This document shows, piece by piece, positions 11,254-27,960 of a stretch of DNA of 41,455 nucleotides. The notes below the pieces were generated by a model. It was not told the DNA's origin and did no database searches. It worked only from the letters and a program-made list of their open reading frames with translations. The stretch spans positions 1 through 41,455 of the forward strand of contig JACQSM010000023.1 of assembly GCA_016205965.1 (NCBI GenBank), written 5' to 3'. The translations under genes and the position numbers were made by a program. The stretch's first letter is position 1; each line of letters starts with the position of its first letter. The stretch is from Candidatus Uhrbacteria bacterium. GTDB taxonomy: Bacteria; Patescibacteriota; Patescibacteriia; SG8-24.

Positions 11254-13056
11254 ATGGATCGGACTAGAAACTTCTGCATAATCGCCCACATTGACCACGG
11301 CAAGTCGACCCTCTCGGATCGGCTTATTGAAGTTACCGGCACGGTCTCCAAGCGCGACATGCAGCCGCAGCTCCTCGACCAGATGGATATCGAGCGCGAG
11401 CGGGGCATCACCATCAAGCTCCAGCCGGTCCGCATGCACTACAAATCCAAGGATGGCCAAGAATACCTATTGAATCTGATCGACACCCCCGGCCACGTCG
11501 ACTTCACCTACGAAGTCTCACGATCGCTGGCTGCCGTCGAAGGCGCGATCCTTCTGGTCGACGCCACCCAAGGCGTCCAAGCCCAGACCATCGGCAACCT
11601 CTACCTGGCGCTCGAACAGAACCTGACCATCATTCCGGTCGTCAACAAGATCGACATGCCCAGCGCCGAACCCGAGAAGGCTCGCGAAGAGCTTGTTCGC
11701 TTGCTCGGCTGCGCGCCCGAGGACGTCCTCTTCGCCTCCGGAAAAACCGGTCAGGGCGTTCCCGAAATTCTCGAAGAGGTCATCAAACGCGTGCCGCCGC
11801 CCAAGGGTGATCCGTCCAAGCCGCTGCGCGCCTTGGTATTCGATTCGTCGTACGACGATTACAAAGGCGTCGTCGCCTTCGTCCGCGTCATCGACGGCAG
11901 CATCAAGCGAGCCGACAAGATGCATCTGGCGGCGACCTCGACGACCAGCGAAACGCTCGAAGTCGGCTACTTCACGCCGAAATACGCGACCGCCGAATCG
12001 ATCACCGCCGGCGAAATCGGCTACGTCGTCACCGGCCTCAAAGACATCTCCGCCTGCCGCGTCGGCGACACCGTCACCGTGCCGGACTACAAAGCCAGGA
12101 ACGTCGTGCCGCTCGAGGGCTATAAGACCGTCAACCCGATGGTCTTCGCCGGCCTGTTCCCAGCCGAGGGCGACGAGTTCGACAAGCTGCGCGAGGCCAT
12201 GCTGCGGCTCAAACTTAACGACGCCGCGCTCCAGTTCGAGCCCGAGCATTCGCCGGCGCTGGGCTTCGGTTTCCGCTGCGGCCTGCTCGGCCTGCTCCAC
12301 CTCGAGATCGTCCAGGAAAGGCTCAAGCGCGAATATAATCTCGAGGTCATCGTGACCGTACCGTCGGTCGCCTACCGCGTCACCAAAACTTCGGGCGAGG
12401 TCATCGTCGTCAAGTCGCCGGCCGATCTGCCCGACCCGTCGTCGATCAGGCAGATCGAAGATCCGTGGATGAAAGTCGATATCGTTTCGCCGCGCGATCA
12501 CCTCGGCGCCATCATGGCCTTCGTCCAGGAGAAGCGCGGCCTCTACAAAGACACCGAATACCTGGGCAATGACGAAACCGGCCGGGTCATCTTGCATTAC
12601 GAAGTCCCGTTGTCGTCGCTCTTGGTCGATTTCTATGATAACTTGAAGAACGCGTCGTCCGGCTACGCCTCGCTCAATTACGAGTTCCTCGAATACCGCA
12701 AGGCCGACGTCGTCAAACTCGATATTTTGGTGGCCGAAGATCAGGTCGAAGCCCTGGCCTCGATCGTCTACGCCGATTCGGCCCAGCGCGTCGGCCGCCG
12801 CATCGTCGAGAAGCTCAAAGAGACGCTGCCGCGCCAGCAGTTCGAGGTCAAAATTCAGGCCGCGGTCGGCGGCAAGATCGTCGCTTCCGAGCGCATCACC
12901 GCCTATCGCAAGGACGTCACCGGCTATCTGTACGGCGGCGACGTCACCCGCAAGCGCAAGCTGCTCGAAAAGCAGAAGAAGGGCAAGAAGCGCATGATGA
13001 AATCGGGCCGCATCGACATCCCGCCCGAGGCTTACATGGCCGTACTCAAGAAATAA
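11254..13056 (+). CDS. lepA: Elongation factor 4 (LepA)
   Basis: Translational GTPase EF4/LepA (600 aa), a cytoplasmic ribosome-associated factor proposed to back-translocate or remodel stalled ribosomes and to help 30S assembly. The G-domain motifs are intact: AHIDHGKST (G1, residues 11-19), RGITIK (G2), DTPGHVDF (G3), NKID (G4). The family-specific C-terminal domain is present, with KRKLLEKQKKGKKRMMKSGR followed by PPEAYMAVLKK at the very end. Length is typical. The start MDRTRNFCIIAHIDHGKST is standard. It is driven by the promoter at 11204-11232 and is followed within 4 bp by a short membrane-peptide gene and then recJ. Confidence 0.96.
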   Translation: MDRTRNFCIIAHIDHGKSTLSDRLIEVTGTVSKRDMQPQLLDQMDIERERGITIKLQPVRMHYKSKDGQEYLLNLIDTPGHVDFTYEVSRSLAAVEGAILLVDATQGVQAQTIGNLYLALEQNLTIIPVVNKIDMPSAEPEKAREELVRLLGCAPEDVLFASGKTGQGVPEILEEVIKRVPPPKGDPSKPLRALVFDSSYDDYKGVVAFVRVIDGSIKRADKMHLAATSTTSETLEVGYFTPKYATAESITAGEIGYVVTGLKDISACRVGDTVTVPDYKARNVVPLEGYKTVNPMVFAGLFPAEGDEFDKLREAMLRLKLNDAALQFEPEHSPALGFGFRCGLLGLLHLEIVQERLKREYNLEVIVTVPSVAYRVTKTSGEVIVVKSPADLPDPSSIRQIEDPWMKVDIVSPRDHLGAIMAFVQEKRGLYKDTEYLGNDETGRVILHYEVPLSSLLVDFYDNLKNASSGYASLNYEFLEYRKADVVKLDILVAEDQVEALASIVYADSAQRVGRRIVEKLKETLPRQQFEVKIQAAVGGKIVASERITAYRKDVTGYLYGGDVTRKRKLLEKQKKGKKRMMKSGRIDIPPEAYMAVLKK

Positions 13057-13060
13057 TTTT

Positions 13061-13174
13061 ATGGCGATGAAACTCCGCAGAAAGACCATCAAGAAAATCG
13101 TCTGGACGGTATTTTCGACGCTCGTGGTGGTGGTGACGATTTTGGGCACCATCGGGCCGGCGTTCACCGGCTGA
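13061..13174 (+). CDS. Single-helix membrane peptide (37 aa)
   Basis: This ORF is too short for the supplied track. It reads MAMKLRRKTIKKIVWTVFST, then LVVVVTILGTIGPAFTG, then TGA. A strongly basic N-terminus is followed by one hydrophobic stretch, the pattern of a small inner-membrane protein with its N-terminus in the cytoplasm. It sits 4 bp after lepA and 9 bp before recJ, preceded by the AT-rich start context (ttttATG) used by its neighbours. From memory, short peptides of this form (KKIVWT...V...G) recur in Patescibacteria genomes, but I cannot check this. Function is unknown. Conservation of the peptide at this locus would settle whether it is real. Confidence 0.6.
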   Translation: MAMKLRRKTIKKIVWTVFSTLVVVVTILGTIGPAFTG

Positions 13175-13183
13175 TAGCGTCCT

Positions 13184-14950
13184 ATGCGCTGGAGGATCGC
13201 GCCGGACGCGCCGGCGGACGCGCGTGAGAAATTTCCCGGGCTGCATCCGATCGCGGCGCGGCTGTTGTGGCAGCGCGGCATCGTCGACAAGGACGAAGCC
13301 GGGCGTTTTCTCGACCCCAGCTACGAGCGCGACATCCACGATCCGTTTCTTTTCAAAGACATGCGCCGGGCCTGCGAGCGCGTCTGGCGGGCGCTCGAGA
13401 TCGGCCAGAAGATCGTCATCCACGGCGACTACGATGCCGACGGCGTCACCGGTTCGGTCCTCCTGATGCAGACGTTCCGCCGAGGGGCCGAACTCATGGG
13501 CGCCGATCCGGGGCTGCTCTCGCATTACACCCCGCACCGCGAAAAAGAGGGCTACGGCGTCCGCGCGGAAACCGTCGAACTGTTGGCGGCCCGAGGCGAG
13601 CAGCTCATGATCACGGTCGACTGCGGCATCGGCTGCGCCGCCGAGATCGCCCTGGCCAAGGAGAAGGGGATCGACACCATCGTCGTCGATCACCACCAGA
13701 TTCCCGAGCGTGTCCCCGAATGCATCATCATTCACCCTTGGGTCGCCGGTGAAACCTACCCCTTCAAGTATTTGGCCGCGGTCGGCGTCGCTTTCAAGTT
13801 CGCCTGCGGCTTCATCCGCTACGCCGCCGAGCGCGGCGCCGCCTTCGAGCCCGGCTACGAAAAATGGCTGCTCGACCTGGTGGCCATCGCCACCGTCACC
13901 GACGTCGTGCCGCTGGTCGGTGAAAACCGCGCCCTGGAGACGTTCGGCCTCAAAGTCCTCAACAAAACCCGCCGGCCCGGCCTCAAAGCGCTGCTCGATT
14001 CCGCCGGACTCGAATCCGGCGGCATCGACACCGTCTCGGTCGGCTACGCCATCGGCCCGCGCATCAACGCCGCCTCGCGCATGAACCACGCCAGCTTGGC
14101 CTTCGCCACGTTGATGGCGGCGACGCCGGAAGAAGCCCGGGTCTTGGCCGACCAGCTCAACGAAACCAACCGCGATCGCCAGCGCTACACCGAACAGATC
14201 ATGACCGCGGCTCGCTGCCGTCTGACCGAGGTTGCCGGCAAAAAGATCTTCGTCTGCGCCGGCGACGGCTGGTCGCCGGGAATCGTCGGCCTGGTCGCCG
14301 GAAAATTCGCCAACGAACTGGCGATGCCGGTGTTCGTTTTCGGCAAGGATGGCGATAAGTTCGTCGGTTCGGGCCGGAGCATCCCCGAGTTCAACGTCGT
14401 GGCCGGCATGGAGCGGTCCAAGAAGCATCTGGCCAGGTTCGGCGGCCATCCCCAGGCATGCGGCCTGACGATCATGGGCGAGGATAATTTCCGCGCCTTC
14501 TGCGGCGAAATCGAAGCCTATGCCGAGGAGATCCTCGGCGGCGTCGAACTCGAGCCGACCCTGCCGGTCGATGCCGAACTCAAGATCGGCGACATCACCT
14601 GGGAGCTTGTCGACCTCATCGCCAAGTTCGAGCCTTACGGCGAGAAAAATCCGCGGCCGCGTTTTTTGCTTCGCGATCTCGAGCTGTACTCGACGACCCC
14701 GGTCGGCAAAACCGGCGGCCACGTGCGCCTCGGCGTTCGCGGCGGGCCGGACCGCCCGGGCGGACTGGCCCCGCGGGAAATCAAACTGATCGCCTTCAAT
14801 TTCGCCGAGCGGGCCAAGGCTTTCGCCCCGCTCTCGAAGGTCGACGCCGTGGTCGAAATCGGCGTCAATGTCTGGAACGGCCGCAAAGATATACAATTGA
14901 AAGTCGTTGATATGCGACAATCCGAATATGCATCTCACCCTGCACACTGA
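13184..14950 (+). CDS. recJ: Single-stranded-DNA-specific exonuclease RecJ
   Basis: 5'-3' single-strand DNA exonuclease of the DHH superfamily (588 aa), acting in recombination, mismatch and base-excision repair. The phosphoesterase motifs are present: VIHGDYDADGVTGS (motif I, near residue 83), ITVDCGIG, and the DHH motif IVVDHHQIP. The DHHA1 domain contains GWSPGIVGLVAGKFANELAM, then GSGRSIPEFNV and FGGHPQACGLTI. A C-terminal OB-fold region ends the protein (EPYGEKNPRPRFLL onward). Length is typical. The last 23 nt overlap the RNase H gene, consistent with coupled translation. Confidence 0.94.
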   Translation: MRWRIAPDAPADAREKFPGLHPIAARLLWQRGIVDKDEAGRFLDPSYERDIHDPFLFKDMRRACERVWRALEIGQKIVIHGDYDADGVTGSVLLMQTFRRGAELMGADPGLLSHYTPHREKEGYGVRAETVELLAARGEQLMITVDCGIGCAAEIALAKEKGIDTIVVDHHQIPERVPECIIIHPWVAGETYPFKYLAAVGVAFKFACGFIRYAAERGAAFEPGYEKWLLDLVAIATVTDVVPLVGENRALETFGLKVLNKTRRPGLKALLDSAGLESGGIDTVSVGYAIGPRINAASRMNHASLAFATLMAATPEEARVLADQLNETNRDRQRYTEQIMTAARCRLTEVAGKKIFVCAGDGWSPGIVGLVAGKFANELAMPVFVFGKDGDKFVGSGRSIPEFNVVAGMERSKKHLARFGGHPQACGLTIMGEDNFRAFCGEIEAYAEEILGGVELEPTLPVDAELKIGDITWELVDLIAKFEPYGEKNPRPRFLLRDLELYSTTPVGKTGGHVRLGVRGGPDRPGGLAPREIKLIAFNFAERAKAFAPLSKVDAVVEIGVNVWNGRKDIQLKVVDMRQSEYASHPAH

Positions 14951-15335
14951 CGGCGGCGCCCGCGGCAATCCCGGGCCGGCCGGCTGCGGCGCGGTCGTCG
15001 CCGACGCCGCCGGAAAAGTGCTCAAAGAGCACGGCCGCTACCTCGGCGAAACCACCAACAACCAGGCCGAGTATCGCGGCTTGATCGACGGCCTGGGTCA
15101 CTGCAAGGAACTCGGCGCCACGACCGTCGACGTCTTCATGGACTCCGAGCTGATCGTCAAGCAGATGCGGCACGAGTACAAGGTGAAGGCAGCCGAATTG
15201 GCGCCGCTCTTCCTTCTTGCCTGGAATCTCTGTGCCGGCTTCAAAAAAGTGACATTCACCCACATTCCGCGGGCCCGCAACAGCCACGCCGACCGCCTGG
15301 TCAACGAGGCGATCGACAGGGGATTGAGCCGATAG
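14928..15335 (+). CDS. rnhA: Ribonuclease HI-family protein
   Basis: RNase H fold nuclease (135 aa) that would cleave the RNA strand of RNA-DNA hybrids. The four catalytic acids can be seen: Asp in LHTDGGARGNPGPAGCG, Glu in NQAEYRGL, Asp in FMDSELIVKQM and Asp in RNSHADRL. It has the Archaeal/Bacillus-type short form, like YpdQ or SSO-type RNases, rather than the longer E. coli form with a basic handle. I place the start at ATG 14928 (MHLTLHTDGG), which puts the first catalytic Asp near the N-terminus. The ORF track start at 14907 adds seven residues with no support. The gene overlaps recJ by 23 nt and is followed by a terminator. Confidence 0.9.
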   Translation: MHLTLHTDGGARGNPGPAGCGAVVADAAGKVLKEHGRYLGETTNNQAEYRGLIDGLGHCKELGATTVDVFMDSELIVKQMRHEYKVKAAELAPLFLLAWNLCAGFKKVTFTHIPRARNSHADRLVNEAIDRGLSR

Positions 15336-15350: not shown

Positions 15351-15376
15351 CGCCCGATTAAAATCGGGCGGTTTTA
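15351..15376 (+). terminator. Intrinsic terminator after rnhA
   Basis: CGCCCGAT (15351-15358), TAAA loop, ATCGGGCG (15363-15370), then GTTTTA. It closes the lepA-recJ-rnhA unit, directly upstream of the next promoter. Confidence 0.8.
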
Positions 15377-15385
15377 TGCTATACT
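15377..15385 (+). promoter_or_regulatory. Extended -10 element (TGC TATACT)
   Basis: TGCTATACT lies 10 nt before the ATG of the 511-aa surface protein and just after the rnhA terminator. No -35 match is seen. The start site would be within about 4 nt of the ATG. Confidence 0.55.
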
Positions 15386-15395: not shown

Positions 15396-16931
15396 ATGCC
15401 CAGGCGCATCGATCGTTTTGCGTTTCGGACTTTGGTCGCGGTCGCCGCCGCTCTTTTGAGCATCGCGCTGCGGCCCGGCATCGCCGCCGCCGGTACGCAA
15501 GACAACGTCGAGGGCTGGGCCTGGTCCGGCACCATCGGCTGGATCTCGCTCAACTGCAATTCGGTCGCGCCGCCGACTTGCGCCACGGTCGACTACGGCG
15601 TCACGTTCGAGGATGTTCCCGGATTCCCGGATCGCGGCAATCTCAAGGGCTGGGCTTGGTCCGAAAACGTCGGCTGGATCTGTTTCGGCATTACATGTGC
15701 GGGCACGACGCCGCAAGGCGGCGCATCCTACGCGCAGTACCGCGGCAGCTACAACGGCAAGACCGACGAGATCTTCGGCTGGGCCAAGATCGACGCCCTC
15801 GGCAACAATGGTTGGATCTCGCTCAACTGCGACAACGATCCGACCACGACCTGCGCCGTTTCGAGCTACCATCTCGTGCTCGACGCCACTCTGCCGACGC
15901 TGACGGCGCCTTTCACCAAAGGCGTGATCGACGATCATTGGGGCTGGAGCGGCACGTCCGAGGGCACCGGCATCGGCTGGATCGATTTCAGTTCGGTGAT
16001 GACCACGTGGGCCGCGGCCAGTCTCGGCGCCGTCAGCCGGCCGGTCGGCGTTTATGAGCCGACGACGGCCACGCCCGGCAGCCGCCTTTTCACCTTCAGC
16101 ATCTCATTTTCGAATCTGACGGCGGCCCAGGACGACCTCCTCCAATGCGACATCCGCCGCTCCGACGGCACCTTGGGCGCGCCGCTGCAAAAAATCTACG
16201 CCTCGACCGTCAGGCATGTCGCCGAGTCCTTGCAATACACCGTGACCGGCGCCGATCCGATCGATAAGATCAAGCGTTGGGAAGTCGCCGCCTGCCGCAT
16301 CGCCGGCCCGCGCACGGCGACCAGCTGTCCGCCGGCCTGCGCCGGAGGGCAAATCTGCGAGGGCGGCAAATGCCGCAATGTCATCGTGACGACGACCGCG
16401 CCGGCCCCGATCTTCGCCCATGCGAACGCCTGGACCATCGCCGACAGCGATACCGACGACGTCTATCTGGCGACCCAGTGCTTCAACGGGTTCCCTGGAA
16501 AATACTTCGGCAATTCCTGGCGCTGCGATTTCAGCGGCGACGCCGATTTTTCCATGGGCATGAGCCAAGGCGCTAATATCGAGCGCTACTGCGGCGATAG
16601 CATCGACAACGACGGCAACGGCGAAACCGATTGCAACGACCGCCACTGCAAGGGGATCTCATTGCTCTGCCGCACGCCGCCCTTGGCGCCGGGCGCGCCG
16701 CCGCTGCTCGAGCCGCTGTCGTGCACCTGGGGCGCTTCCGGCGACAACTTGGCCGACTGCACCGCCGGATTCACGCCCGGAACGATCTGCTGCACCAAGC
16801 AAAACAAGATCGTCGACGGCTACGAATGTTTTCACGGCATTGCCAATGACGGCTACATCGATTGCGACGATCCGGGCGCCGTCGTCGGCGATGTCTGCTG
16901 CTCGACTGCCGGCATGGTTCAAGTCAAATGA
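15396..16931 (+). CDS. Secreted protein with GWAWS-type repeats and Asp/Cys motif
   Basis: A 511-aa exported protein. Basic residues and the hydrophobic stretch TLVAVAAALLSIALRPGIAAAG form a signal peptide. Residues about 35-210 hold four Trp-rich repeats: GWAWSGTIGWISLNC, GWAWSENVGWICFG, GWAKIDALGNNGWISLNC and WGWSGTSEGTGIGWIDF. From memory, this repeat type is common in surface proteins of Patescibacteria. The middle (about 215-340) has a beta-sandwich-like look. The C-terminal third is Cys-rich and contains IDNDGNGETDCNDRHC, the same Asp-rich motif repeated many times in the next protein. No LPXTG or C-terminal anchor is visible. Its stop overlaps the next start (ATGA), so the two proteins are probably made together. 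The function is unknown; adhesion or cell-surface structure is an inference. Confidence 0.8.
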   Translation: MPRRIDRFAFRTLVAVAAALLSIALRPGIAAAGTQDNVEGWAWSGTIGWISLNCNSVAPPTCATVDYGVTFEDVPGFPDRGNLKGWAWSENVGWICFGITCAGTTPQGGASYAQYRGSYNGKTDEIFGWAKIDALGNNGWISLNCDNDPTTTCAVSSYHLVLDATLPTLTAPFTKGVIDDHWGWSGTSEGTGIGWIDFSSVMTTWAAASLGAVSRPVGVYEPTTATPGSRLFTFSISFSNLTAAQDDLLQCDIRRSDGTLGAPLQKIYASTVRHVAESLQYTVTGADPIDKIKRWEVAACRIAGPRTATSCPPACAGGQICEGGKCRNVIVTTTAPAPIFAHANAWTIADSDTDDVYLATQCFNGFPGKYFGNSWRCDFSGDADFSMGMSQGANIERYCGDSIDNDGNGETDCNDRHCKGISLLCRTPPLAPGAPPLLEPLSCTWGASGDNLADCTAGFTPGTICCTKQNKIVDGYECFHGIANDGYIDCDDPGAVVGDVCCSTAGMVQVK

Positions 16932-19900
16932 CCTCTTCCGCCCGCATTTTTTCCGTCCCGCTCGTCGTCGCCTTGGCGGCGCTGCTTTTCGGCGCCGCGC
17001 CGGCCGAGGCGACGATCTCGCCGTCGCCGTGTCCGGGCAGCGTTTGCACCGGCAGCGTCACGGTCGGCGGCCAGGCGGTCAACTACGCCTACACCCAGCA
17101 CGTGAAGGGGAACGGCACCCTTAAAGTCCGGCTCAACGGCGGCACCTACAACACCGGACTGCTGATTTCGTATACGATCGCCGGCCTGCCGACCTTCTCC
17201 GGCTGGTCGACCTACGCCAACCCGACCAACGGCGCCGTGGTGCTGCCGACCGAAGTCGTCGATCCGGCGCATACCGCCTATGAGCGCAAAGACGCCGACG
17301 GCTGCGCCTCCTGCATCGTCGACCAGGTCATGACCGTGACTTTTTCGGGACTGGCCGATGGCGCCTACTCGTTCGACGTTTCGATTTTCCAGAACGGAGC
17401 CGGGGGAGTCGTCTTACTCGATCTGCCGTTCTACGTCGATGCTGGCGCTCCCGACAACAACGAATCGACCCCGTGGGCCGCGATTTCGGGCATGGACAAG
17501 CCCTGCGCCGACCTCAATGGCGGCCAGCCGATCGACAACGACCTCGACTATTATTCTAACTGCGCCGATACCCAATGCGTCGGACAGATCGGTCGGGCCG
17601 GCGACGGCGCTCTGTGCCAGAATCCCGAATCGACCTGCACTGACGCCTTCGATAACGACGCTGACGGCTTGAGCGACTGCCTCGACTCAAGCTGCAACGG
17701 CCTGGTCGGGCGGACCTCGCCCTTGGCCTACTGCCAGTACGCCAACGAACACGACACCATCAGCGGCACCCAGGCCTGCACCGACAACTTCGACAACGAC
17801 GCCGACGGCTTGAGCGATTGCTACGACAACGTCTCGTCGCCGTCGGGCAATCCAGCCAACACCTGCTGGAAGCAGAACACCGGCTGTCCGGCGACCGAGA
17901 CGAGTTGCACCGACGGCATCGATAACGATTACGATCAGAGTTACAACTCCGGCTACGATGCCGTGCCGACGACCGGCAAAAATTGCCAGGACTACGACTG
18001 CGCCGGCAATCCCGCCTGCCCTTCGAACGAAGCCAAGACCGCCGGCGGCGTTGACGCCGAGGCGCAATGCTTCAACACTGTCGACGACGATCTCGATACC
18101 AAGATCGACTGCAGCGATCCCGATTGTGCCGGCGTCGTCAACCCCGGCAATCCCGATCAGATGTGCCATGAAAAGGAGTTCGATCTGGTCCAACATTACC
18201 AATTTTGCGCCAACTCTTTCGACGATGACGGCGACGTGCCGATCGACTGCGCCGACACCGACTGCAAGCGCGCCTTCGGCAGCTGCGGGCCATGCCCGAA
18301 CCGCGAGGACTTCCGTTATAACTCATGCGCCGACGGCAGCGACAACGATTCCGATAACGCCACTCAAGGCTTCGACTGCGCCGATCCAGACTGCGCCGGG
18401 AAACTCGGCTCGCTGACTCTCGGAGCGCAGTGCGCGACCGCCGAATCCGGCGCCTTGTGCAAGGACGGTTTCGACAACGACCAGGACGGCTCGGCCGATT
18501 GCCTCGATTCCGGCTGCTCCGGCGCCGCCGGGCCGTCGGGCGAGACCTGCCAGCCGGCCGCCGAAACGACCTGCAATGACGGCAAGGACAACGATGCCGA
18601 CGGCAGCATCGATTGCGCCGACACGCAGTGCTTCGGCGTCGGTTCCTGCGCCGTCAAAAATTGGACCAACGCCGCCTGCCAGATCGTGCCCGAATACTCC
18701 GGTTTTTTCGCTTTCGCCAGCGGAACGCCGACCGTGACCGCCCGCGTCACCACCAAGTCGCATGTCTTTGGCGGCGCCCCGGCCGAGGTCGAAATCCGCG
18801 GCACGGCGACGTATTCGAGCGTGGCCGTCTACGTCGGTAACAACACCGACCCGGCGAAATATTTTCCCTATGCGTCGGGAAGCTGCGCTCTCACTGGCAC
18901 TGGTGCGGCGCAGATGTCCTTCACTTCTATCGACGGCCATCAGATTCAGATTTTTAATCAAACCGGGCAGACGATTTCTAATTTCGACGTCACCTTGTCG
19001 TGTCCGACACCGGTGACGCCGGCCGCGACCCGGAATTACCAGATCAGCGTTTCGATGCTCAAGCAGCCCGGCAGCGTCGTCGAATACGGCAGCGCCGCCG
19101 TCTCGACCACGCTTTACGAACACGCCAACCCGACGGTGACCGAGATCGAACCTGAAGGCGATTCCGGCGGCACGCTGACCGTGCCCTACAATACCAGCCG
19201 CCGTTTCCGGGTCGTCCCTAATGATCCCGGCGCCGGCCTGGACACCTCGGGCGTCTGCCGCTGCACCCTCAAAGTCAGCGGTCCCGAGACCACCTACGCC
19301 TCGCCCGACGGCAACTGCATCACCGGCCCGCTGACCTTCCAGAGCGACATGGCGCCGATCACCCTCGACGCCAAAGCCCAGGACGGCGCTGCCAACGAAA
19401 GCGGCTACGGCGCCAATTCGACTTTCACCGTCAACGTCGTGCCGGCCATGACCGTGCCGTTGACCAGCCGGCCGACCGGGCACACGTCGCCGTTCCTTAA
19501 AGGGCTGGCATCGGAGCCGCCCGAGCAGCGGCGTTTGTCGATCGACATTCTCGACGTCGAGTTCCGCACCGGCACGACCGACGGCTGGCCCGTCGGCGCC
19601 CCCTGCAACATCTACGTCCGCGATTCCTCCGGCGCCATCGTCAATGGCCCGGTCGGCCCGACCGCCACTCTCCCCGGAGAAATCATCGGCAATCTGATCC
19701 GCTGCAACGGCTCCATCACCTTGCCGACCGGGCTGTCCGACGGCGAGTACGGCGTCGCGGTCCGCGTCGCCGACACCGACGGCGATACCGGCGGTCCGAC
19801 GTTCGTCGGCGGCGGCACCTTCGAATCCAACCGTCGGGCGCTGTTCATGTGCAACAACGTGCCGGCGGCCGGAGAACCCGAGACGATCTGTTCCCAAGCC

Positions 19901-21265
19901 GACTTCGACGACGACGGCGCTCCCGAAGGCCTCTTCACCACGCTCTACTCGCCGGCGCCGCGCGCCTGCGACAACTGCGTCAATCTGACCAACGATCAGA
20001 CCGATGCCAACGCCAACGGCATCGGCGACGCTTGCGAACCGAGCGATCCCTTCGGCCGCTGCGAATTCGATCGCGACATCATCAGCCAATGCGCTTCCGA
20101 TGCTCCGCCGACTTGCACCGGTCCGCGTTGCCCGGGCCCGCCGGAAGTCGATGTCGGCACCTGCCAGAACGATCCCGAAGCGGCCCAGTGCATCGATGAC
20201 AGCGATTGCGGCCCGGATCGCGGACCATGCGCCAACTACACCCAGCCGCCGACGCAAAAAAGCCTCCCGTCCTGGGGCATCTGTTCGGCCGACGGCAAAA
20301 TCTGTTTCAAGGACAACCAGTGCAACAATTCCGTCGGCGCCTGCACAGTCGGCGGAGCCGCTTGCGAGCGCGACATCGACTGCGGCGATAACGGCCCCTG
20401 CGTCGGCGCCGACACCTGCCTCAACCTGCTTTTCCCCTGGCTCCAGACCAGCTACGGCAACATCTTTTCGAAGAAGAAGATCAGCGCCGCCGAGCCGCCG
20501 CCGAGCGGCCAGTATAACGCCACCTACTGCATGTCAGCCCGCGACCAGGTGCTGAACTTCAAGAGCCAGTCTTGCGACCCGTCCACCGGCGAAGTCCTGC
20601 CCGACACCCGATTCGAACTTCCCAAGGCGTCGAACACCTACACCACCGTGCTCGGCCGCATCGACGTCGCCGGTCTTTTGGCCGGCCGCTACGGCGATGT
20701 CATCACGATTTCGCCCGACATGACCGGCGTGACGTATCCGCTCAAAGGCAAGGTCTACGTCCTCGAAAATGCCGACCTCGTCGTCAGCGGCGCCCCCGTG
20801 ACCATATCGAACGGCTCGCTCACCGACCGCGGCAACGGCACCATCGTGGTCAAGGGCGGCAACATCACTTTCAACACCGATGTCAGCTATTCGGCCGCCT
20901 CGATCTTCCGGCTGCCGGCGCTGGCCTCGATCGGCTGGATCGCTCTCGACGCCGAAAGCGGCCCTAATCTCGGCTTGAAAGGCAATATCTATATCGGCAA
21001 AGACGTCACCCAGGTCGACGGCGCCTTCTTCGCCGGCGGCCAGGACGGCATCTACACCGTCTGGCCGACCAGCGATCAGAGCGAACTCGCCCTCACCGTC
21101 CACGGCCTGATGGTCGGCCGCGCTTTCCATCTCGGCCGCAACTACAAGAGTTCGACCGAAGGCTCCGAACGTTTCATCTACGACGGCCGGGCCATCGCCA
21201 ATCCGCCGCCCGGCTTCGCCGATGTCACCAAGAGCCTGCCGCTCTTTAAAGACAGCGCACCCTGA
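16928..21265 (+). CDS. Giant secreted Asp/Cys-repeat protein, probably calcium-binding (1445 aa)
   Basis: Very large exported protein. The start is the ATG at 16928 overlapping the previous stop; the ORF-track start is earlier and unsupported. A signal peptide (PLVVALAALLFGAAPAEA) is followed by a beta-rich domain. Residues about 195-575 hold nine copies of a motif of the form C-x-D-x-x-DND-x-DG-x-x-DC-x-D-x-x-C, for example DAFDNDADGLSDCLDSSC and DGKDNDADGSIDCADTQC. The alternating Asp looks like EF-hand or thrombospondin-3-like Ca2+ loops. A thrombospondin type 3-like stretch (CDNCVNLTNDQTDANANGIG) lies near residue 1020, then Cys-rich modules. The last 200 residues, ending in GSERFIYDGRAIANPPPGF, form a domain I associate with Patescibacteria surface proteins. 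It lies directly upstream of the pilus locus. A role as adhesin or pilus-associated protein is an inference. Confidence 0.82.
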   Translation: MTSSARIFSVPLVVALAALLFGAAPAEATISPSPCPGSVCTGSVTVGGQAVNYAYTQHVKGNGTLKVRLNGGTYNTGLLISYTIAGLPTFSGWSTYANPTNGAVVLPTEVVDPAHTAYERKDADGCASCIVDQVMTVTFSGLADGAYSFDVSIFQNGAGGVVLLDLPFYVDAGAPDNNESTPWAAISGMDKPCADLNGGQPIDNDLDYYSNCADTQCVGQIGRAGDGALCQNPESTCTDAFDNDADGLSDCLDSSCNGLVGRTSPLAYCQYANEHDTISGTQACTDNFDNDADGLSDCYDNVSSPSGNPANTCWKQNTGCPATETSCTDGIDNDYDQSYNSGYDAVPTTGKNCQDYDCAGNPACPSNEAKTAGGVDAEAQCFNTVDDDLDTKIDCSDPDCAGVVNPGNPDQMCHEKEFDLVQHYQFCANSFDDDGDVPIDCADTDCKRAFGSCGPCPNREDFRYNSCADGSDNDSDNATQGFDCADPDCAGKLGSLTLGAQCATAESGALCKDGFDNDQDGSADCLDSGCSGAAGPSGETCQPAAETTCNDGKDNDADGSIDCADTQCFGVGSCAVKNWTNAACQIVPEYSGFFAFASGTPTVTARVTTKSHVFGGAPAEVEIRGTATYSSVAVYVGNNTDPAKYFPYASGSCALTGTGAAQMSFTSIDGHQIQIFNQTGQTISNFDVTLSCPTPVTPAATRNYQISVSMLKQPGSVVEYGSAAVSTTLYEHANPTVTEIEPEGDSGGTLTVPYNTSRRFRVVPNDPGAGLDTSGVCRCTLKVSGPETTYASPDGNCITGPLTFQSDMAPITLDAKAQDGAANESGYGANSTFTVNVVPAMTVPLTSRPTGHTSPFLKGLASEPPEQRRLSIDILDVEFRTGTTDGWPVGAPCNIYVRDSSGAIVNGPVGPTATLPGEIIGNLIRCNGSITLPTGLSDGEYGVAVRVADTDGDTGGPTFVGGGTFESNRRALFMCNNVPAAGEPETICSQADFDDDGAPEGLFTTLYSPAPRACDNCVNLTNDQTDANANGIGDACEPSDPFGRCEFDRDIISQCASDAPPTCTGPRCPGPPEVDVGTCQNDPEAAQCIDDSDCGPDRGPCANYTQPPTQKSLPSWGICSADGKICFKDNQCNNSVGACTVGGAACERDIDCGDNGPCVGADTCLNLLFPWLQTSYGNIFSKKKISAAEPPPSGQYNATYCMSARDQVLNFKSQSCDPSTGEVLPDTRFELPKASNTYTTVLGRIDVAGLLAGRYGDVITISPDMTGVTYPLKGKVYVLENADLVVSGAPVTISNGSLTDRGNGTIVVKGGNITFNTDVSYSAASIFRLPALASIGWIALDAESGPNLGLKGNIYIGKDVTQVDGAFFAGGQDGIYTVWPTSDQSELALTVHGLMVGRAFHLGRNYKSSTEGSERFIYDGRAIANPPPGFADVTKSLPLFKDSAP

Positions 21266-21278
21266 TAGGGTGTATACT
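21249..21278 (+). promoter_or_regulatory. Possible promoter of the pilus operon
   Basis: AAGACA, 18 bp, TATACT. The -35 overlaps the end of the giant surface protein gene. The leader to pilM would be about 20 nt without a Shine-Dalgarno. The -35 match is partial. Confidence 0.35.
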
Positions 21279-21304: not shown

Positions 21305-22387
21305 ATGGGACTTTTCGGCCCCAAGAAAGTGAGCTATCTCGGCGTTGACCTCGGCATCGGCGGCGCCAAATTGGTCGAATTGCAGAACGAGAAGGGCCGG
21401 GCCCGTCTCGTTACCTACGGATTTACCGAGCGCCTGCCCGACGCCGAACCGGCCAGCCTGGTCGATGCGCCCCGCGAAACGGCCGAGCTTCTCAAGAAGG
21501 TCGCCCAAAAAGCCAAGGTCACCACCAACAAGGCCATCACCGGGCTGCCGGTCGCCTCGGTTTTCAGTTCGGTCATCAGCATTCCCAAGGGTTCCGAAAA
21601 AGAACAGCGCGACGCCATCCAATGGCAGGCGAAAAAGTTGATTCCCGTGCCGCTCGAGGAGATGATCATCGATCACAAGATCATCACGCCGGCGGCGGCG
21701 AAAGGCGCGCCGGCCGCGGCCAAAAAAGACGAACCCAAGAGCCTCCAAGTGCTCATCACCGGCGCCTCCAAGGCGATGGTCCAGAAGTACGTGACGGTTT
21801 TCAAACAATCCGGCCTCGAACTCATCAGCCTCGAAACCGAAGCCTTCGCCCTGATCCGTTCGCTCATCGGCAAGGATCGCGCCACTTCGATGATCGTCGA
21901 CATCGGCGCCGCCCGCACCAACATCATCATCGTCGAGAACGGCATCCCTTTCGTCACCCGGAGCCTCGACATGGGCGGAGCCACGCTCACCAAGGCCATG
22001 GGCAAAACCTTGAACCTCGACCTCAAGTCCGCCGAGCAGATGAAGTGCGACATCAAGAGCGTTTCGTCGATCTATCCGGGCGAGGGCCTGCCCAAGATTT
22101 TCGAGACCGTCATGCTGCCGATGGTCACCGAGCTCCAGTATTCGCTGAACCTGTATACCGGCCAGGGAGACGGGCCGGCCAAGACGGTCGAAAAGATCAT
22201 CCTGACCGGCGGTTCGGCCATCTTGCCGTCGCTGGCCCAATATTTCTCGTCGCAGCTCAATATCCGCACGTATCTCGGAGATCCTTGGGCCCGCGTCGTC
22301 TATCCCGATGAGCTCCGGTCCGTCATCGAGGAGATCGGTCCGCGCTACGCCGTCGCCGTCGGACTGGCGATGCGCGACATCGAATGA
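21305..22387 (+). CDS. pilM: Type IV pilus assembly protein PilM
   Basis: Cytoplasmic actin-like ATPase-fold protein (360 aa) that binds the N-terminus of PilN and links the cytoplasmic ring to the inner-membrane platform of the type IV pilus. Family features include YLGVDLGIGGAKLVEL at residues 11-26, the phosphate-loop-like IVDIGAARTNIIIVENGIPF, RSLDMGGATLTKAMG, and IILTGGSAILPSLAQYFSSQ. The N-terminus MGLFGPKK is typical. It is first in a long run of pilus genes. No pilQ or true pilP gene follows, as is usual in organisms without an outer membrane. Confidence 0.92.
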   Translation: MGLFGPKKVSYLGVDLGIGGAKLVELQNEKGRARLVTYGFTERLPDAEPASLVDAPRETAELLKKVAQKAKVTTNKAITGLPVASVFSSVISIPKGSEKEQRDAIQWQAKKLIPVPLEEMIIDHKIITPAAAKGAPAAAKKDEPKSLQVLITGASKAMVQKYVTVFKQSGLELISLETEAFALIRSLIGKDRATSMIVDIGAARTNIIIVENGIPFVTRSLDMGGATLTKAMGKTLNLDLKSAEQMKCDIKSVSSIYPGEGLPKIFETVMLPMVTELQYSLNLYTGQGDGPAKTVEKIILTGGSAILPSLAQYFSSQLNIRTYLGDPWARVVYPDELRSVIEEIGPRYAVAVGLAMRDIE

Positions 22388-22405: not shown

Positions 22406-23080
22406 ATGCCTACGCCCATTCCGCCGAAACCGCCGCCCAAGCCGGCCGCCAAACCCGCCCCGAAGGGCGCGGGTGATTTTTCCGTCGGCGAGCCCGTCAC
22501 CGGCCTGCGCGTGTCGCTGATGCCGGTCGAGACCGGCGCCGTGCCGTCCGAGCGGCGCTATATCACCATCCTGGTGGCGACCGTGCTGTTGGAAACGCTG
22601 GTGTTCGGCGCCGCCTGGGCGGGCCTTTCCTTCACCGTAAAAACGCGCCAGGAAGCCCAGGCCAAGGCGAACGCCGAAACCCTGGCCGCGCAATCCGAAA
22701 CCGCCAAGCTGGGCCAGGCAGCCAAAGAAGCCGACGGCTTCGCCCGCCGGGTCGATATTCTGCGCGGCCGTCTCGACGAGCATGCCTACTGGACGGTCAT
22801 GTTCGCTCTGATGGAACGCAGCGTTCGTCCCAACGTCATCTTCGTCAGCTTCGCCGGCGACACCAAGACCGGCGTGATCAGCGTCGAAGCCGAGGCCCGC
22901 AGCTTCCGCGACATCGCCGAACAGATCGTCCTGATGCGCTCGAATCCGCTGATCGTCGACGTTCGCACGAGCTCGGCCGTGACCAGTCTGGATGCGACCG
23001 GCGAAATCACCGGCGTAAATTTTTCCCTGCTCGTCAAACTCAAGCCCGAAGCCTGGAAGAAGCCGGTCGCGGCAAAATAA
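22406..23080 (+). CDS. pilN: PilN-like inner-membrane pilus protein
   Basis: Bitopic membrane protein (224 aa) in the PilN position between PilM and a PilO-like gene. The cytoplasmic N-terminal tail is Pro/Lys-rich (PIPPKPPPKPAAKPAPKG), followed by VTGLRVSLMPVE, which resembles the PilM-binding INLLP motif of PilN. One transmembrane helix is near residues 55-75 (ITILVATVLLETLVFGAAWAG). Then come a coiled coil (TRQEAQAKANAETLAAQSET) and a periplasm-side-type alpha/beta domain with the PilN-like VISVEAEARSFRDIAEQIVL. Sequence similarity to model PilN is low, so the name rests on architecture and position. Confidence 0.75.
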   Translation: MPTPIPPKPPPKPAAKPAPKGAGDFSVGEPVTGLRVSLMPVETGAVPSERRYITILVATVLLETLVFGAAWAGLSFTVKTRQEAQAKANAETLAAQSETAKLGQAAKEADGFARRVDILRGRLDEHAYWTVMFALMERSVRPNVIFVSFAGDTKTGVISVEAEARSFRDIAEQIVLMRSNPLIVDVRTSSAVTSLDATGEITGVNFSLLVKLKPEAWKKPVAAK

Positions 23081-23089
23081 CCGTTCGTT

Positions 23090-23659
23090 ATGGCCCTGGA
23101 ACGCGTAAAAGCCCGAGTGGGCACCGGCGTAAAGTTGCTGCCAGCCGTCATCGTGCTGGTCGTCGTCGGTTACGCCGCCGCCGGATATTTCTTGCTGATC
23201 CTGCCGCGCTGGAGGCTGATCGCTCCGGGCGGCGAGCTCGATCTGCAGCGCGTTCAAGAGCTGCGGAACTCGGAGCTTGGCTACGCCGCCCTGGTCGGAG
23301 CCGCCGTCGGCGATCACAAGGCGCTGAATCCGGAACTCAAGGAGCGCGTCAGCGCCGCCTTGCCGCCGGAGAAAGACATTCCCGGCATCATCGCCTCTTT
23401 GGCCGCCCTGGCCGAGCTGCACGGCATGGTGTTGGTCAACTTCGATGCCGTGGTCGATGACAAGACGGCGCTGCCGACCGGCGAGAAGGTCGTCGCCGTC
23501 ACCATGAACCTGACGGGCGCGGATTATCCCGGGTTCAAAGCCTTCCTGGCCGATATCGAGCGCTCGCTTCGGATCTTCGACGTCCAATCGCTGGTTTTTT
23601 CTCCCAAAACCGCTTCCTACAGCATGACGATGAGCGCGTATTATCTCGATGCCAAATAA
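23090..23659 (+). CDS. pilO: PilO-like inner-membrane pilus protein
   Basis: Bitopic membrane protein (189 aa) that would pair with PilN in the alignment platform. One N-terminal membrane helix (VIVLVVVGYAAAGYFLLIL) is followed by an extracytoplasmic region. That region ends in an alpha/beta domain (VVAVTMNLTGADYPGFKAFL, then RIFDVQSLVFSP) like the C-terminal ferredoxin-like fold of PilO, where a short coiled-coil stretch is expected first. It starts 9 bp after the PilN-like gene. The stop overlaps a possible upstream start of the next gene. The assignment rests on size, topology and gene order. Confidence 0.75.
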   Translation: MALERVKARVGTGVKLLPAVIVLVVVGYAAAGYFLLILPRWRLIAPGGELDLQRVQELRNSELGYAALVGAAVGDHKALNPELKERVSAALPPEKDIPGIIASLAALAELHGMVLVNFDAVVDDKTALPTGEKVVAVTMNLTGADYPGFKAFLADIERSLRIFDVQSLVFSPKTASYSMTMSAYYLDAK

Positions 23660-23660
23660 T

Positions 23661-23936
23661 ATGGCCTTGTCCGGCTCAAAAGAAGGTCAACGAAATCAGA
23701 AGATCGTCCTGGCGGTTGTTTCTCTCGCCTTGCTCGGCGCCGCCGGCTTCATGTATCGCGACGTCATTTTACCGACCGCCGGCACCGGATCGGCTAACGT
23801 GATCGCGAAACCGGCGCCGAAGAAGATCGATGCGTCGGTTTTCAACAGAACCGATTTCAAAGAACTCCGGCAGTTCGGCGACGTGCCGGTCAAGGTGTTG
23901 CAGACCGAGAAGACAAATCCCTTCAGAGTTCAGTGA
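23661..23936 (+). CDS. Small bitopic membrane protein in the pilus operon
   Basis: A 91-aa protein I do not recognise by sequence. A short cytoplasmic N-terminus is followed by one helix (IVLAVVSLALLGAAGFMYR) and a short outer segment ending DVPVKVLQTEKTNPFRVQ. The ATG at 23661 is used because its AT-rich context matches the neighbours and it follows the pilO stop. An alternative ATG at 23649 would overlap pilO. It sits where pilP is in proteobacterial operons but lacks a lipobox and the PilP beta-domain, so it is not PilP. A structural part of the pilus platform is likely from context only. Confidence 0.7.
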   Translation: MALSGSKEGQRNQKIVLAVVSLALLGAAGFMYRDVILPTAGTGSANVIAKPAPKKIDASVFNRTDFKELRQFGDVPVKVLQTEKTNPFRVQ

Positions 23937-23937
23937 T

Positions 23938-25668
23938 ATGGCAGCCCAAACCGCCGACATTCTCGACATCCTTCTCGAGGCCGGCCGCATCAGCGACGAG
24001 CAGTATCGGGCCGTCAAAAAAGAAGCGATCGCCGGCGGCAAAGCGCCCGAGCAGCTGGTCCTCGAGAAAAAATTGGTCGACGAAGAGTTCCTGGCCAAGG
24101 CGCGCGGCACGCTTTTGGGCGTGCCTTACGCCGAGCTCCTGGGCAAAGAGCTGCCGGCCGCGGTTCTCAATCTGGTACCCAGGCAAGTCGCCGAAAACAC
24201 CCGGGCCGTGGCCTTCGAGCGCGACGGCGACGCCGTCCATATCGCCATGGTCGAGCCGCGCGACATGGCCGCAGCCCAGGCGATCGATTTTTTGGCGCAG
24301 AACAACGGTTTCCGCCCCAAGTACTTCATCGTCTCGAACGCGTCGTACGTTTACGCGATGAAAAAATACGAGGCCTTGGGCAAAGAGGTCGCCCGGGCCT
24401 TGGAAGTCGCCAAGGAAAAGTTCGTGCCGGAAAAGGCGGTCAAAGAAGAAAAGATCGAAGAGGTCATCAAAGGCGCGCCGGTTTCGCGCATCGTCGCTGT
24501 GATCATGCGCCATGCGGTCGAAGGCGGCGCCTCCGACATCCACATCGAGCCGTTCGGCGGCGAAACCCGGGTCCGTTATCGGGTCGACGGCGTGCTGCGG
24601 ACATCGCTGACCCTGCCCAACTACATCCATTCGTCGGTCGTTTCGCGCGTCAAAGTTTTGGCCGGCCTCAAGCTCGATGAGACCCGCATTCCCCAGGACG
24701 GCCGCATCACCGAAACGGTCGGCACCAAGGTCATCGACTTCCGCGTCTCGACCATGCCGCTCCAGGATACCGAGAAGGTCGTGATGCGCATTCTCGACAC
24801 CACCAAGGGCGTGCCGAGCCTCGAACAGCTCGGCTTCCGCAAGCCGTTCATCGACATCATCGTGCGCCAGATCCGCGAACCGCACGGCATGTTCCTGGTT
24901 ACCGGCCCGACCGGCTCCGGCAAATCGACGACGCTTTTCACCATTCTGAACATGCGCAACGAGGAAGGGGTCAACATCGCCACCCTCGAGGATCCGGTCG
25001 AATACACCATCAAGGGCGTCAATCATTCGCAGGTCAGAACCGAGCTCGGCTACACCTTCGCCGGCGGCCTCCGGGCCCTGCTGCGCCTGGACCCGAACAT
25101 CATCTTGGTCGGCGAAATCCGCGACGGCGAAACGGGCGAGCTCTCGGTGCATGCGGCGCTCACCGGCCACCTGATCTTTTCGACGCTGCACTCCAACGAT
25201 TCCTTCGGCGTCGTGCCCCGCCTGATCGACATGCACGTCGAGCCGTTCCTGCTTTCGGCCACCATCAACCTGGCCATCGCCCAGCGCCTCGGCCGCAAGA
25301 ATTGCGAACGCTGCAAAGGCCCCGTTCAGGTCGCCGAAGAAGTCGAAGCCCAGGTCCGCAAGGAGGTCGAAGAGATCCCCGAGGTCTACCGCTCGCACAT
25401 CGACCTCAAGGCGCCGCGGCTGACATTTTACAAGGGCAAGGGCTGCCTGCGCTGCGGCGATTCCGGCTACGTCGGCCGCGTCGCCGTGGCCGAGCTGCTC
25501 CAGTTCGACGACGACATGCGCGAGCTGGTGGCCAAAGGATTTCCGCAGGAACAGGTTCGGGAGGCGGTCAAGAAACAGCACATGATCACCCTGCGCCAAG
25601 ACGGGCTCTTGAAAGCCTTGGAAGGCTCGACTACACTGGAAGAAGTCATGAGGATAAGCACTGAATAG
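23938..25668 (+). CDS. pilB: Type IV pilus assembly ATPase PilB (GspE/PulE family)
   Basis: Hexameric cytoplasmic motor ATPase (576 aa) that powers pilus extension. It has an N-terminal MshEN/T2SSE-N domain (about 1-160), a linker, and then the ATPase core. In the core are SDIHIEPFGGETRVRYRVDG, Walker A GPTGSGKSTT near residue 323, the Asp box GEIRDGETGELSVHAALTGH with the Walker B region, and the His box STLHSND. The C-terminal zinc-binding cysteines CERC and CLRCGDSGYVGRVAVAELL mark extension-type (PilB/GspE) rather than PilT retraction motors. The start is the ATG at 23938, 1 bp after the previous stop; the ORF-track start is upstream and unsupported. No pilT is in the window. Confidence 0.93.
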   Translation: MAAQTADILDILLEAGRISDEQYRAVKKEAIAGGKAPEQLVLEKKLVDEEFLAKARGTLLGVPYAELLGKELPAAVLNLVPRQVAENTRAVAFERDGDAVHIAMVEPRDMAAAQAIDFLAQNNGFRPKYFIVSNASYVYAMKKYEALGKEVARALEVAKEKFVPEKAVKEEKIEEVIKGAPVSRIVAVIMRHAVEGGASDIHIEPFGGETRVRYRVDGVLRTSLTLPNYIHSSVVSRVKVLAGLKLDETRIPQDGRITETVGTKVIDFRVSTMPLQDTEKVVMRILDTTKGVPSLEQLGFRKPFIDIIVRQIREPHGMFLVTGPTGSGKSTTLFTILNMRNEEGVNIATLEDPVEYTIKGVNHSQVRTELGYTFAGGLRALLRLDPNIILVGEIRDGETGELSVHAALTGHLIFSTLHSNDSFGVVPRLIDMHVEPFLLSATINLAIAQRLGRKNCERCKGPVQVAEEVEAQVRKEVEEIPEVYRSHIDLKAPRLTFYKGKGCLRCGDSGYVGRVAVAELLQFDDDMRELVAKGFPQEQVREAVKKQHMITLRQDGLLKALEGSTTLEEVMRISTE

Positions 25669-25673
25669 CATTT

Positions 25674-26063
25674 ATGCCCGAAAAAGCCGTAGGAAAAAAA
25701 GTGCTCATTGTCGACGACGACGCCTTTCTCTCCGGGATCTACGCCACCAAGCTCGAAATTGACGGCTTTCAAGTCGTCAGCGCCCGCGACGGCGAAGAGG
25801 GCCTCAAGGCGGCCGCAACCGAGCTGCCCGATCTTATTCTGCTCGACGTGCTCATGCCTAAGCTTGACGGTTTCGAAGTCCTCAAGCGGCTCAAGGCCGA
25901 TCCGGCGACCAAGCCCATCCCGGTCATCATGCTGACCAACCTCGGCCAAAAGGAAGATGTCGAAAAGGGCCTGTCCGAAGGGGCCGAAGATTACCTCATC
26001 AAAGCCCACTTCGTGCCTTCCGAAGCGGTCATCAAGATCAAGAAGGTCTTGAAGATGCCGTAG
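25674..26063 (+). CDS. CheY-like single-domain response regulator
   Basis: Stand-alone receiver domain (129 aa) with all key residues: acidic pocket Asp14-Asp16 (LIVDDDAFL), phospho-acceptor Asp58 (LLDVLMPKLDG), Thr88 (MLTNLG) and Lys110 (YLIKAHF). There is no output domain, so it would act by binding a partner when phosphorylated. It lies 5 bp after pilB and 10 bp before pilC inside the pilus operon. The simplest inference is control of the PilB motor or the platform, comparable in concept to PilG/PilH. The cognate histidine kinase is not in the window. I believe receivers in this position recur in Patescibacteria, but cannot verify it here. Confidence 0.9.
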   Translation: MPEKAVGKKVLIVDDDAFLSGIYATKLEIDGFQVVSARDGEEGLKAAATELPDLILLDVLMPKLDGFEVLKRLKADPATKPIPVIMLTNLGQKEDVEKGLSEGAEDYLIKAHFVPSEAVIKIKKVLKMP

Positions 26064-26073
26064 GGATCCCGCC

Positions 26074-27282
26074 ATGCCGCTCTTCGACTACATCGCCGCC
26101 GACGCGACCGGCGCAACCTCGCGCGGCGCGGTCGAAGCGGCAACCGCCGAACTCGCCCTTGATACCCTCAAGGATCGCGGGCTCAACGTCCAGTCTTTGG
26201 AAGAAAGGGCGCCGGTGAGTTTTTTTGCCCGCGCTTTGCCGTCCTTCGGCGGCATACCGATCAAAGCGATCGTCATTTTTTCGCGCCAATTTTCGATTCT
26301 GGTCGGTGCCCAGGTGCCGATCGTCGAATCGCTCCGCACCGTCGCCAACCAGACCCAGCACCGGCGCATGCGGGAGATCGTCTTCGACGTCGCCGACGAG
26401 GTCGAGGCAGGCACGCCGCTCTCGACGGCCATGGCCAAGTATCCCGCCGCCTTCAGCGACTTCTTCGTCAACATGATCAAGTCGGGCGAGACGACCGGTC
26501 GTCTCGAGGAGATCATGATCTATCTGGCCGACCAGATGGAGCGCGACTACGACCTGATGACCAAGATCAAGGGCGCCATGATCTATCCGGCCTTCATCAT
26601 GATCGGCCTGGTCGGCGTCGGCTTCGTCATGATGGTTTTCGTCGTGCCCAAGCTGACGGCCGTTCTTCAGGAGTCCGGCGCCCAGCTGCCGCTGCCGACC
26701 AGAATCCTCATCGGCACGAGCAGCTTCTTTCAGCGGTATTGGATTCTCATTCTGGTCGCAGCCGGCGGCGGCGGCGCCGGCCTTCGTGCCTGGACCGCGA
26801 CGCCGGGGGGCAAAAAGATCTGGGATTTCATCAAGCTCAAGGTGCCGGTTTTCGGCGCCCTGTTCCAGCGCATTTACATCGTCCGTTTCACCAGAAGCTT
26901 CTCAACGCTGCTTTCGGGCGGAGTCGAACAGGTTCGCGCCCTTGAGATCAGCGCCGATATCGTCGGCAACGCCACCTATGCCGCCCAGATCCGGGAAACG
27001 GCCAAAGAGGTCTCTGACGGCAACTCGGTGACCACGGTGTTTACCCGTGAAGGCACTATGCCGAAGATGGTTCCGCAGATGATGTCGGTGGGGGAGTCGA
27101 CCGGCCGTTTGCATGAGGTCCTAGCCAAATTGACCGACTTTTATTCGCGCGAGCTCCAAAACCTGGTTACCAACCTGGTGTCGGCCATCGAACCGCTGAT
27201 CATGCTGATCATGGGTCTGGCCGTCGGCGTCATGGTCGCGGCTATCATCTTGCCGATGTACAGCTTGTCGGCGAATTTTTAG
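26074..27282 (+). CDS. pilC: Type IV pilus platform protein PilC
   Basis: Polytopic inner-membrane platform protein (402 aa, GspF/PilC family) on which PilB acts to insert pilins. Two T2SSF domains are visible, each with the family pattern: IFSRQFSILVGAQVPIVESL then FSDFFVNMIKSGETTGRLEE, and FTRSFSTLLSGGVEQVRALE then MVPQMMSVGESTGRLHEVLA. Three membrane helices are seen: MIYPAFIMIGLVGVGFVMMVF, WILILVAAGGGGAGL and the C-terminal AIEPLIMLIMGLAVGVMVAA. An N-terminal beta segment (PLFDYIAADATG) is typical. It follows the receiver gene by 10 bp and ends the operon before a new promoter that serves the major pilin. Confidence 0.94.
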   Translation: MPLFDYIAADATGATSRGAVEAATAELALDTLKDRGLNVQSLEERAPVSFFARALPSFGGIPIKAIVIFSRQFSILVGAQVPIVESLRTVANQTQHRRMREIVFDVADEVEAGTPLSTAMAKYPAAFSDFFVNMIKSGETTGRLEEIMIYLADQMERDYDLMTKIKGAMIYPAFIMIGLVGVGFVMMVFVVPKLTAVLQESGAQLPLPTRILIGTSSFFQRYWILILVAAGGGGAGLRAWTATPGGKKIWDFIKLKVPVFGALFQRIYIVRFTRSFSTLLSGGVEQVRALEISADIVGNATYAAQIRETAKEVSDGNSVTTVFTREGTMPKMVPQMMSVGESTGRLHEVLAKLTDFYSRELQNLVTNLVSAIEPLIMLIMGLAVGVMVAAIILPMYSLSANF

Positions 27283-27304
27283 AGCGAACTCTTGACCTTG
27301 GCCG

Positions 27305-27333
27305 TTGTCGTTATCGCATCGTATTGGTACAAT
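27305..27333 (+). promoter_or_regulatory. Promoter of the major pilin gene
   Basis: TTGTCG, 17 bp, TACAAT, in the 119-bp gap between pilC and the pilin. The start site is expected near 27340, giving a leader of about 60 nt with a strong Shine-Dalgarno. This fits independent, high expression of the major subunit. Confidence 0.65.
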
Positions 27334-27388
27334 GAATCCGCTGTATTCTGTGGATAACGGACGCACAGCTCATATCCGCAACTCGAAG

Positions 27389-27394: not shown

Positions 27395-27401
27395 GTCAAT
27401 C

Positions 27402-27908: not shown

Positions 27909-27937
27909 GTCAGGTTCATTGGCGCGCCGATGAAGCT

Positions 27938-27954: not shown

Positions 27955-27960
27955 AACCGA

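Follow-up and report, generated by a model that had tools for sequence, protein, structure and literature searches.

A secreted gene pair upstream of a type IV pilus locus

The window analysed here is a 41,455-nucleotide stretch of a Candidatus Uhrbacteria genome (contig JACQSM010000023.1; the source assembly has ~1.09 Mb in 105 contigs and is 89% complete). It carries two overlapping genes directly 5' of a type IV pilus locus, in the order lepA–recJ–rnhA–[protein 1–protein 2]–pilM–pilN–pilO–pilB–response regulator–pilC–pilins (Table 1). Protein 1 has 511 amino acids (aa) and protein 2, which begins with an ATG, has 1445 aa. The two genes are joined by an ATGA overlap, visible in GTCAAATGACC, and a gap of 39 bp separates the stop of protein 2 from the start of pilM at 21305. 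An earlier note, made from the letters alone, had described two exported proteins of these lengths, their overlap and the distance to pilM; coordinates and sequence agree with it on all of these points.

Both proteins have a signal-peptide-like N-terminal segment and neither has another clear membrane segment. Nearly all of the related proteins that we inspected are built in the same way, with a single export segment at the N-terminus and no further clear anchor. We did not find a pilin N-terminus in either protein: the N-termini are of the signal-peptide type and have no N-terminal GFxxxE motif. Both proteins are acidic (in protein 2, 179 Asp and Glu residues versus 76 Lys and Arg).

The C-terminal domain is linked to pilus genes

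The link between the pair and the pilus rests on the C-terminal (CT) domain of protein 2, not on its repeats, and is strongly supported. CT spans the last ~280 residues and has the alignment consensus YDGRxxxNPPPGFxD (YDGRAIANPPPGFAD in the window). In the family of the window, both proteins occur in seven genomes and neither occurs in three, and the order recJ–rnhA–CT protein–pilM is repeated in relatives. Several relatives that lack the pair have an rnhA-sized open reading frame (ORF) directly 5' of pilM, with recJ-sized and lepA-sized ORFs before it (judged by ORF size). The earlier note had named a pair lying far from pilus genes in related genomes as grounds against its reading; we met no such case.

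The first CT alignment was too diverse for a genome scan and a closer subset was used instead. CT was found in 31 of 57 genomes of the class, and in 28 of these 31 pilM is the next gene, at 6–435 bp. Among genomes drawn from across the phylum, 61 of 192 have CT. The best 30 of these phylum-wide loci (that of the window included) comprise 11 with pilM directly next and 6 in which CT is followed by pilN/pilO-like genes, read by eye, with no pilM in the stretch inspected. CT-bearing loci include those of Candidatus Uhrbacteria, Parcubacteria bacterium SG8_24 and Patescibacteria group bacterium. Non-pilus neighbours also occur: in some distant families the gene next to that of the CT protein looks, by eye, like an rRNA methyltransferase or DNA polymerase III delta gene. 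The association with pilus genes is thus looser at greater distance, and it is not universal. We discarded as an artefact one 25,343-aa frame ending in CT (G148 contig C2, 316047–392076), in which 72,000 masked bases had been read as X and only the CT end is real.

CT appears not to have been described previously. By sequence it has no match among solved structures. We considered whether it is DUF7305 (PF23981) and rejected this assignment: matches are weak and under the Pfam cut-off in 4 of 26 CT relatives (best E 0.0022), there is none in the CT of the window, and a profile comparison of CT with the PilX set of the second pilus locus described below gave no support (hhalign probability 1.6). 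The AlphaFold model is rich in beta-strands, with a block-mean predicted local distance difference test score of 81–97 over residues 91–280 of the 290-residue piece modelled, and the predicted fold is a beta-solenoid. In Foldseek searches the match of highest probability is ComZ (6QVI; probability 0.94–0.99, E 0.05–0.06), and ice-binding solenoids are matched at E 0.02. ComZ of Thermus thermophilus is a type IV pilin with a beta-solenoid, proposed to cap the tip of the pilus, and the closest fold to that solenoid is itself an ice-binding protein, 4NU2 (PMC6561018). The agreement of the CT model with the ComZ and ice-binding folds is encouraging, although no match reaches E 0.001.

Asp/Cys repeats of the teneurin C-rich type

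The earlier note had seen an Asp- and Cys-rich motif shared by the two proteins, in one and nine copies, and that count is confirmed. The repeat corresponds to NCBIfam NF033662, 'acidic double-disulfide repeat', which matches protein 2 in eight stretches (E 1e-39, 133.9 bits; curated cut-off, 41 bits). The copy in protein 1 falls under the cut-off (E 4e-6, 26.5 bits). Genome-wide, all nine NF033662 matches lie in these two genes. The strict pattern C-x3,4-D[ND]DxD occurs eight times in protein 2 (0.016 expected; at most one in 2000 shuffles) and is absent from every other frame of at least 100 aa in the window.

The best solved relative of the repeat is the C-rich domain of teneurin-4 (7PLP, E 1.5e-5). 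Its crystal structure holds three Ca2+ through E835, D840, D843, N844, D845, D847, D851, D854 and D856, together with backbone and water oxygens; sites I and II are thrombospondin-3-like and site III is like low-density lipoprotein (LDL) receptor A, and the disulfides are C838–C857, C852–C863 and C858–C869 (PMC9058538). When we overlaid the ten copies without gaps on the nine side-chain ligand positions, each had Asp, Glu or Asn at 6–9 of the nine and an identical residue at 5–8. The copy at residue 545 is identical at eight of the nine and has all four Cys of the first two disulfides (C1–C3 and C2–C4) in register. Most other copies have three Cys in register; the copy at residue 323 is degenerate and that at residue 463 has an insertion. 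The repeats share the Asp and Cys spacing of the teneurin domain and retain most of its calcium-coordinating positions, but they lack the third disulfide and stand in nine tandem copies in protein 2, rather than one.

Because the repeats are homologous to the teneurin-4 domain, Ca2+ binding is a strong and well-supported prediction. The earlier note had proposed Ca2+ sites of thrombospondin-3 or EF-hand type. Binding itself is upheld by the homology to 7PLP, and the thrombospondin-3 comparison holds in part, through sites I and II. For the repeats themselves we prefer the teneurin C-rich assignment and reject the EF-hand and the classic thrombospondin-3 readings. A separate thrombospondin-3-like unit in protein 2 is weak. 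NF033662 looks like the bacterial equivalent of the teneurin C-rich domain, and this might be relevant to the proposal that teneurins came from bacteria. In the open-licence literature we found nothing that describes the NF033662 repeat by name, DUF7305 or proteins of this kind.

Protein 1 and the origin of the two-gene form

Protein 1 is modelled as a beta-rich N-terminal domain, which we term GWAWS-type, followed by an Ig-like middle domain. The GWAWS-type domain has no meaningful Pfam or Protein Data Bank match (a single match to solved structures was at chance level), and a fold search with protein 1 gave generic Ig-like matches, none at E≤0.001.

Other families of the class have a single-gene form, in which one protein, of 473–875 aa and in some cases longer, carries the same GWAWS-type domain at its N-terminus, fused to CT. 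Since this shorter protein joins both domains, the pair is most likely a split and expanded form of one ancestral protein that consisted of the N-terminal domain and the CT solenoid. In a tree of CT, the family of the window forms one well-supported group (99/99) and most other branches are weak; the split forms are nested among the fused ones, with weak resolution. On the simplest reading, splitting and expansion occurred in the family of the window and perhaps separately in its sister family. Duplication followed by reciprocal domain loss is a less simple alternative. The earlier note had described neither CT nor the GWAWS-type domain, nor the single-gene form in relatives, nor the locus order shared across the class.

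Promoter elements and neighbouring genes

An extended −10-like element lies between the hairpin that follows rnhA and the start of protein 1. A count of such promoter matches is by itself no higher than chance, and a TATA(A/C)T box lies 9–17 nt 5' of the protein 1 start in all seven same-family genomes with the pair. The pair is probably transcribed on its own short-leader transcript. The TATACT before pilM suggests a separate promoter for that gene and, as a −10-like box of its own is frequent at pilM, co-transcription of the pair with pilM is uncertain.

The remainder of the pilus locus runs from 22406 to 31489 on the + strand. At its end lies a PilX-like protein whose N-terminus has a weak match (E 2e-5), well under the cut-off, to the tapirin model NF051896.

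Table 1. Features of the gene pair and the adjacent pilus locus (positions in the window; res, residues)
Feature	Position	Strand	Basis or remark
lepA, recJ, rnhA (conserved upstream genes)	11254–15335	+	
Hairpin 3' of rnhA	15351–15370	+	Sequence pattern
Extended −10-like element, TGCTATACT	15377–15385	+	Pattern match; ends 10 nt 5' of protein 1 ATG
Protein 1: signal peptide, GWAWS-type N-terminal domain, Ig-like beta domain, one Asp/Cys repeat, Cys-rich tail	15396–16931	+	
GWAWS-type N-terminal domain of protein 1 (res 32–211)	15489–16028	+	
Ig-like beta domain of protein 1 (res 213–392)			
Asp/Cys repeat of protein 1, NF033662-like, teneurin C-rich type (res 395–426)	16578–16673	+	8/9 Ca-ligand positions D/E/N
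Protein 2: signal peptide, N-terminal region, nine Asp/Cys repeats, linker, weak thrombospondin-3-like unit, Cys-rich stretch, C-terminal beta-solenoid	16928–21265	+	
Nine Asp/Cys repeats of protein 2, predicted Ca2+-binding (res 194–576)	17507–18655	+	Two predicted disulfides per complete unit
Weak thrombospondin-3-like unit of protein 2, DNCVNLTNDQTDANANGIGDAC	19880–20098	+	PF02412 E 0.042, 14 bits versus cut-off 25
CT domain of protein 2, predicted beta-solenoid	20432–21250	+	Module beside pilM/pilN in numerous genomes across the phylum
CT signature, YDGRAIANPPPGFAD	21179–21223	+	Alignments
−10-like TATACT 5' of pilM	21273–21278	+	Pattern level only
pilM	21305–22387	+	PF11104 E 7e-39
pilN	from 22406	+	Match under family cut-off
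pilO	from 23090	+	Match under family cut-off
pilB	from 23830	+	
Response regulator	25674–26063	+	Stand-alone receiver protein between pilB and pilC
pilC	from 26074	+	
Pilin	from 27393	+	
pilD	from 28016	+	
Minor pilins	28813–30668	+	
PilX-like protein, end of pilin cluster	30653–31489	+	Match under family cut-off

Comparison with known pilus proteins

PilY1/PilC pilus-tip adhesins (PF05567) are among the closest known systems. Like proteins 1 and 2, they are large, are exported by a signal peptide, carry Ca2+ motifs, are tied to type IV pilus genes and combine a variable N-terminal part with a conserved C-terminal domain. However, that domain is a seven-bladed propeller in PilY1 and a predicted beta-solenoid here. 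The EF-hand-like Dx(D/N)xDGxxD site of PilY1 lies in its propeller, whereas the D(N/D)DxDG loops of proteins 1 and 2 lie in teneurin-type repeats, with calcium sites of the teneurin (thrombospondin-3 and LDL-receptor A) type. PilY1 is one gene among minor pilins, and here two genes lie 5' of pilM. The earlier note had seen no PilY1 homologue at this locus, and this extends to the whole assembly: PF05567 is in neither protein nor elsewhere in the 89% complete genome at E≤1, so the pair is not PilY1.

ComZ shares with CT a beta-solenoid of the ice-binding-protein type and a type IV pilus context. The likeness is structural only, at a borderline E-value, and ComZ is a pilin fold with an inserted solenoid, whereas the proteins described here have a signal peptide and other domains. 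PilX-like proteins with DUF7305, and PilX1 and PilX2 of Saccharibacteria, are likewise encoded in pilus loci and end in a beta-rich domain, but they have pilin-like N-terminal helices.

The genome has a second type IV pilus locus (contig C31, stretch 6604–9145), in which a 437-aa PilX-like protein (PF14341 E 1e-4, under the cut-off) lies directly 5' of a second pilM and so parallels the CT protein in position. The protein at this position in the second locus of relatives gives weak DUF7305 matches. Two further pilM paralogues are on contigs C56 and C75.

Proposed role and alternatives

On balance we favour, with modest confidence, a role for the pair as a pilus-tip or adhesive accessory of the adjacent type IV pilus. 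The function would most likely be PilY1-like, that is, secreted, calcium-dependent and exerted at the pilus tip or in adhesion; the suggestion of the earlier note that these proteins fill the place of PilY1 as adhesins is plausible. We hypothesize that the pair is a small transcription unit encoding two secreted accessory proteins of the pilus, both rich in disulfides. The CT beta-solenoid would dock to the pilus, probably at the minor-pilin tip complex, and the nine repeats, stiffened by calcium and disulfides, would serve as a stalk, with the N-terminal domains of both proteins facing outward and making contact. This would give PilY1-like tip adhesion or pilus priming without the PilY1 propeller. 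A broader proposal, which we put forward only tentatively, is that proteins with the CT solenoid and its signature, encoded directly 5' of pilM or pilN, may supply the tip or adhesive function of PilY1 across the phylum, with the family of the window having a split version whose stalk, of up to nine teneurin-type repeats, is made rigid by calcium.

Several observations weigh against a pilus role or restrict it. The class-wide search did not find CT in 26 of the 57 genomes, and nearly all of these carry pilM; the pilus machine can therefore do without CT. In the three class genomes in which pilM is not the next gene, CT lies 1.4, 4.5 and 6.3 kb from it. Most single-gene relatives lack the Asp/Cys repeats, which are therefore a lineage feature rather than the core of the system. 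With its own likely promoter, the pair does not require co-transcription with pilM. The Foldseek E-values for CT are all above 0.01, none reaching 0.001, and CT has no profile-level homology to the PilX set of the second locus (hhalign probability 1.6). Filament association, adhesion and Ca2+ binding are predictions from sequence, synteny and models.

Some of these points would also suit a calcium-stabilized, secreted surface adhesin or matrix protein that acts outside the pilus, for which the gap between rnhA and pilM is merely a conserved site. The likely separate promoter, the absence of a pilin N-terminus, the many pilM-bearing genomes in which CT was not found, ectodomains of the large, variable kind common in surface proteins and the non-pilus neighbours of CT in distant families are all consistent with this reading. 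Against it, pilM adjoins CT in 28 of 31 class genomes, and pilM or pilN does so at 17 of the best 30 phylum-wide loci; without some functional connection this is difficult to account for. CT also resembles a pilus-tip solenoid. We consider such a surface protein unlikely, although it is the strongest of the alternatives to a pilus accessory.

A factor for pilus assembly or priming, with CT at the base together with PilM, PilN and PilO or the minor pilins and an ectodomain of secondary importance, is improbable. CT, the conserved part, is encoded beside genes of the alignment complex, and PilY1 primes assembly in Myxococcus (as cited in PMC12206443), but nearly all of the class genomes in which CT was not found keep pilM, and the proteins are exported without a membrane anchor. 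Least probable of all is that the pair serves as a DNA receptor in uptake. This role has been proposed for ComZ, which binds DNA (PMC6561018) and is the nearest pilus structure by Foldseek probability, but both proteins of the pair are acidic, and the solenoid class that CT resembles has varied functions.

Possible implications for host contact in Patescibacteria

The finding ties NF033662, a repeat already catalogued in bacteria, to the C-rich domain of teneurin, and because the calcium sites of that domain are known from a crystal structure, the calcium dependence of the repeats is directly testable. The Patescibacteria in cultivation live attached to microbial hosts. In Saccharibacteria this attachment is driven by type IV pili, for which the candidate adhesin is the beta-propeller minor pilin PilX2 (PMC12206443). 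Different Patescibacteria may thus use different tip proteins. By analogy with the phylum, the cell from which the window derives may also attach to a host. The CT family provides a specific candidate, with a recognizable signature, for pilus–host contact in Patescibacteria beyond Saccharibacteria.

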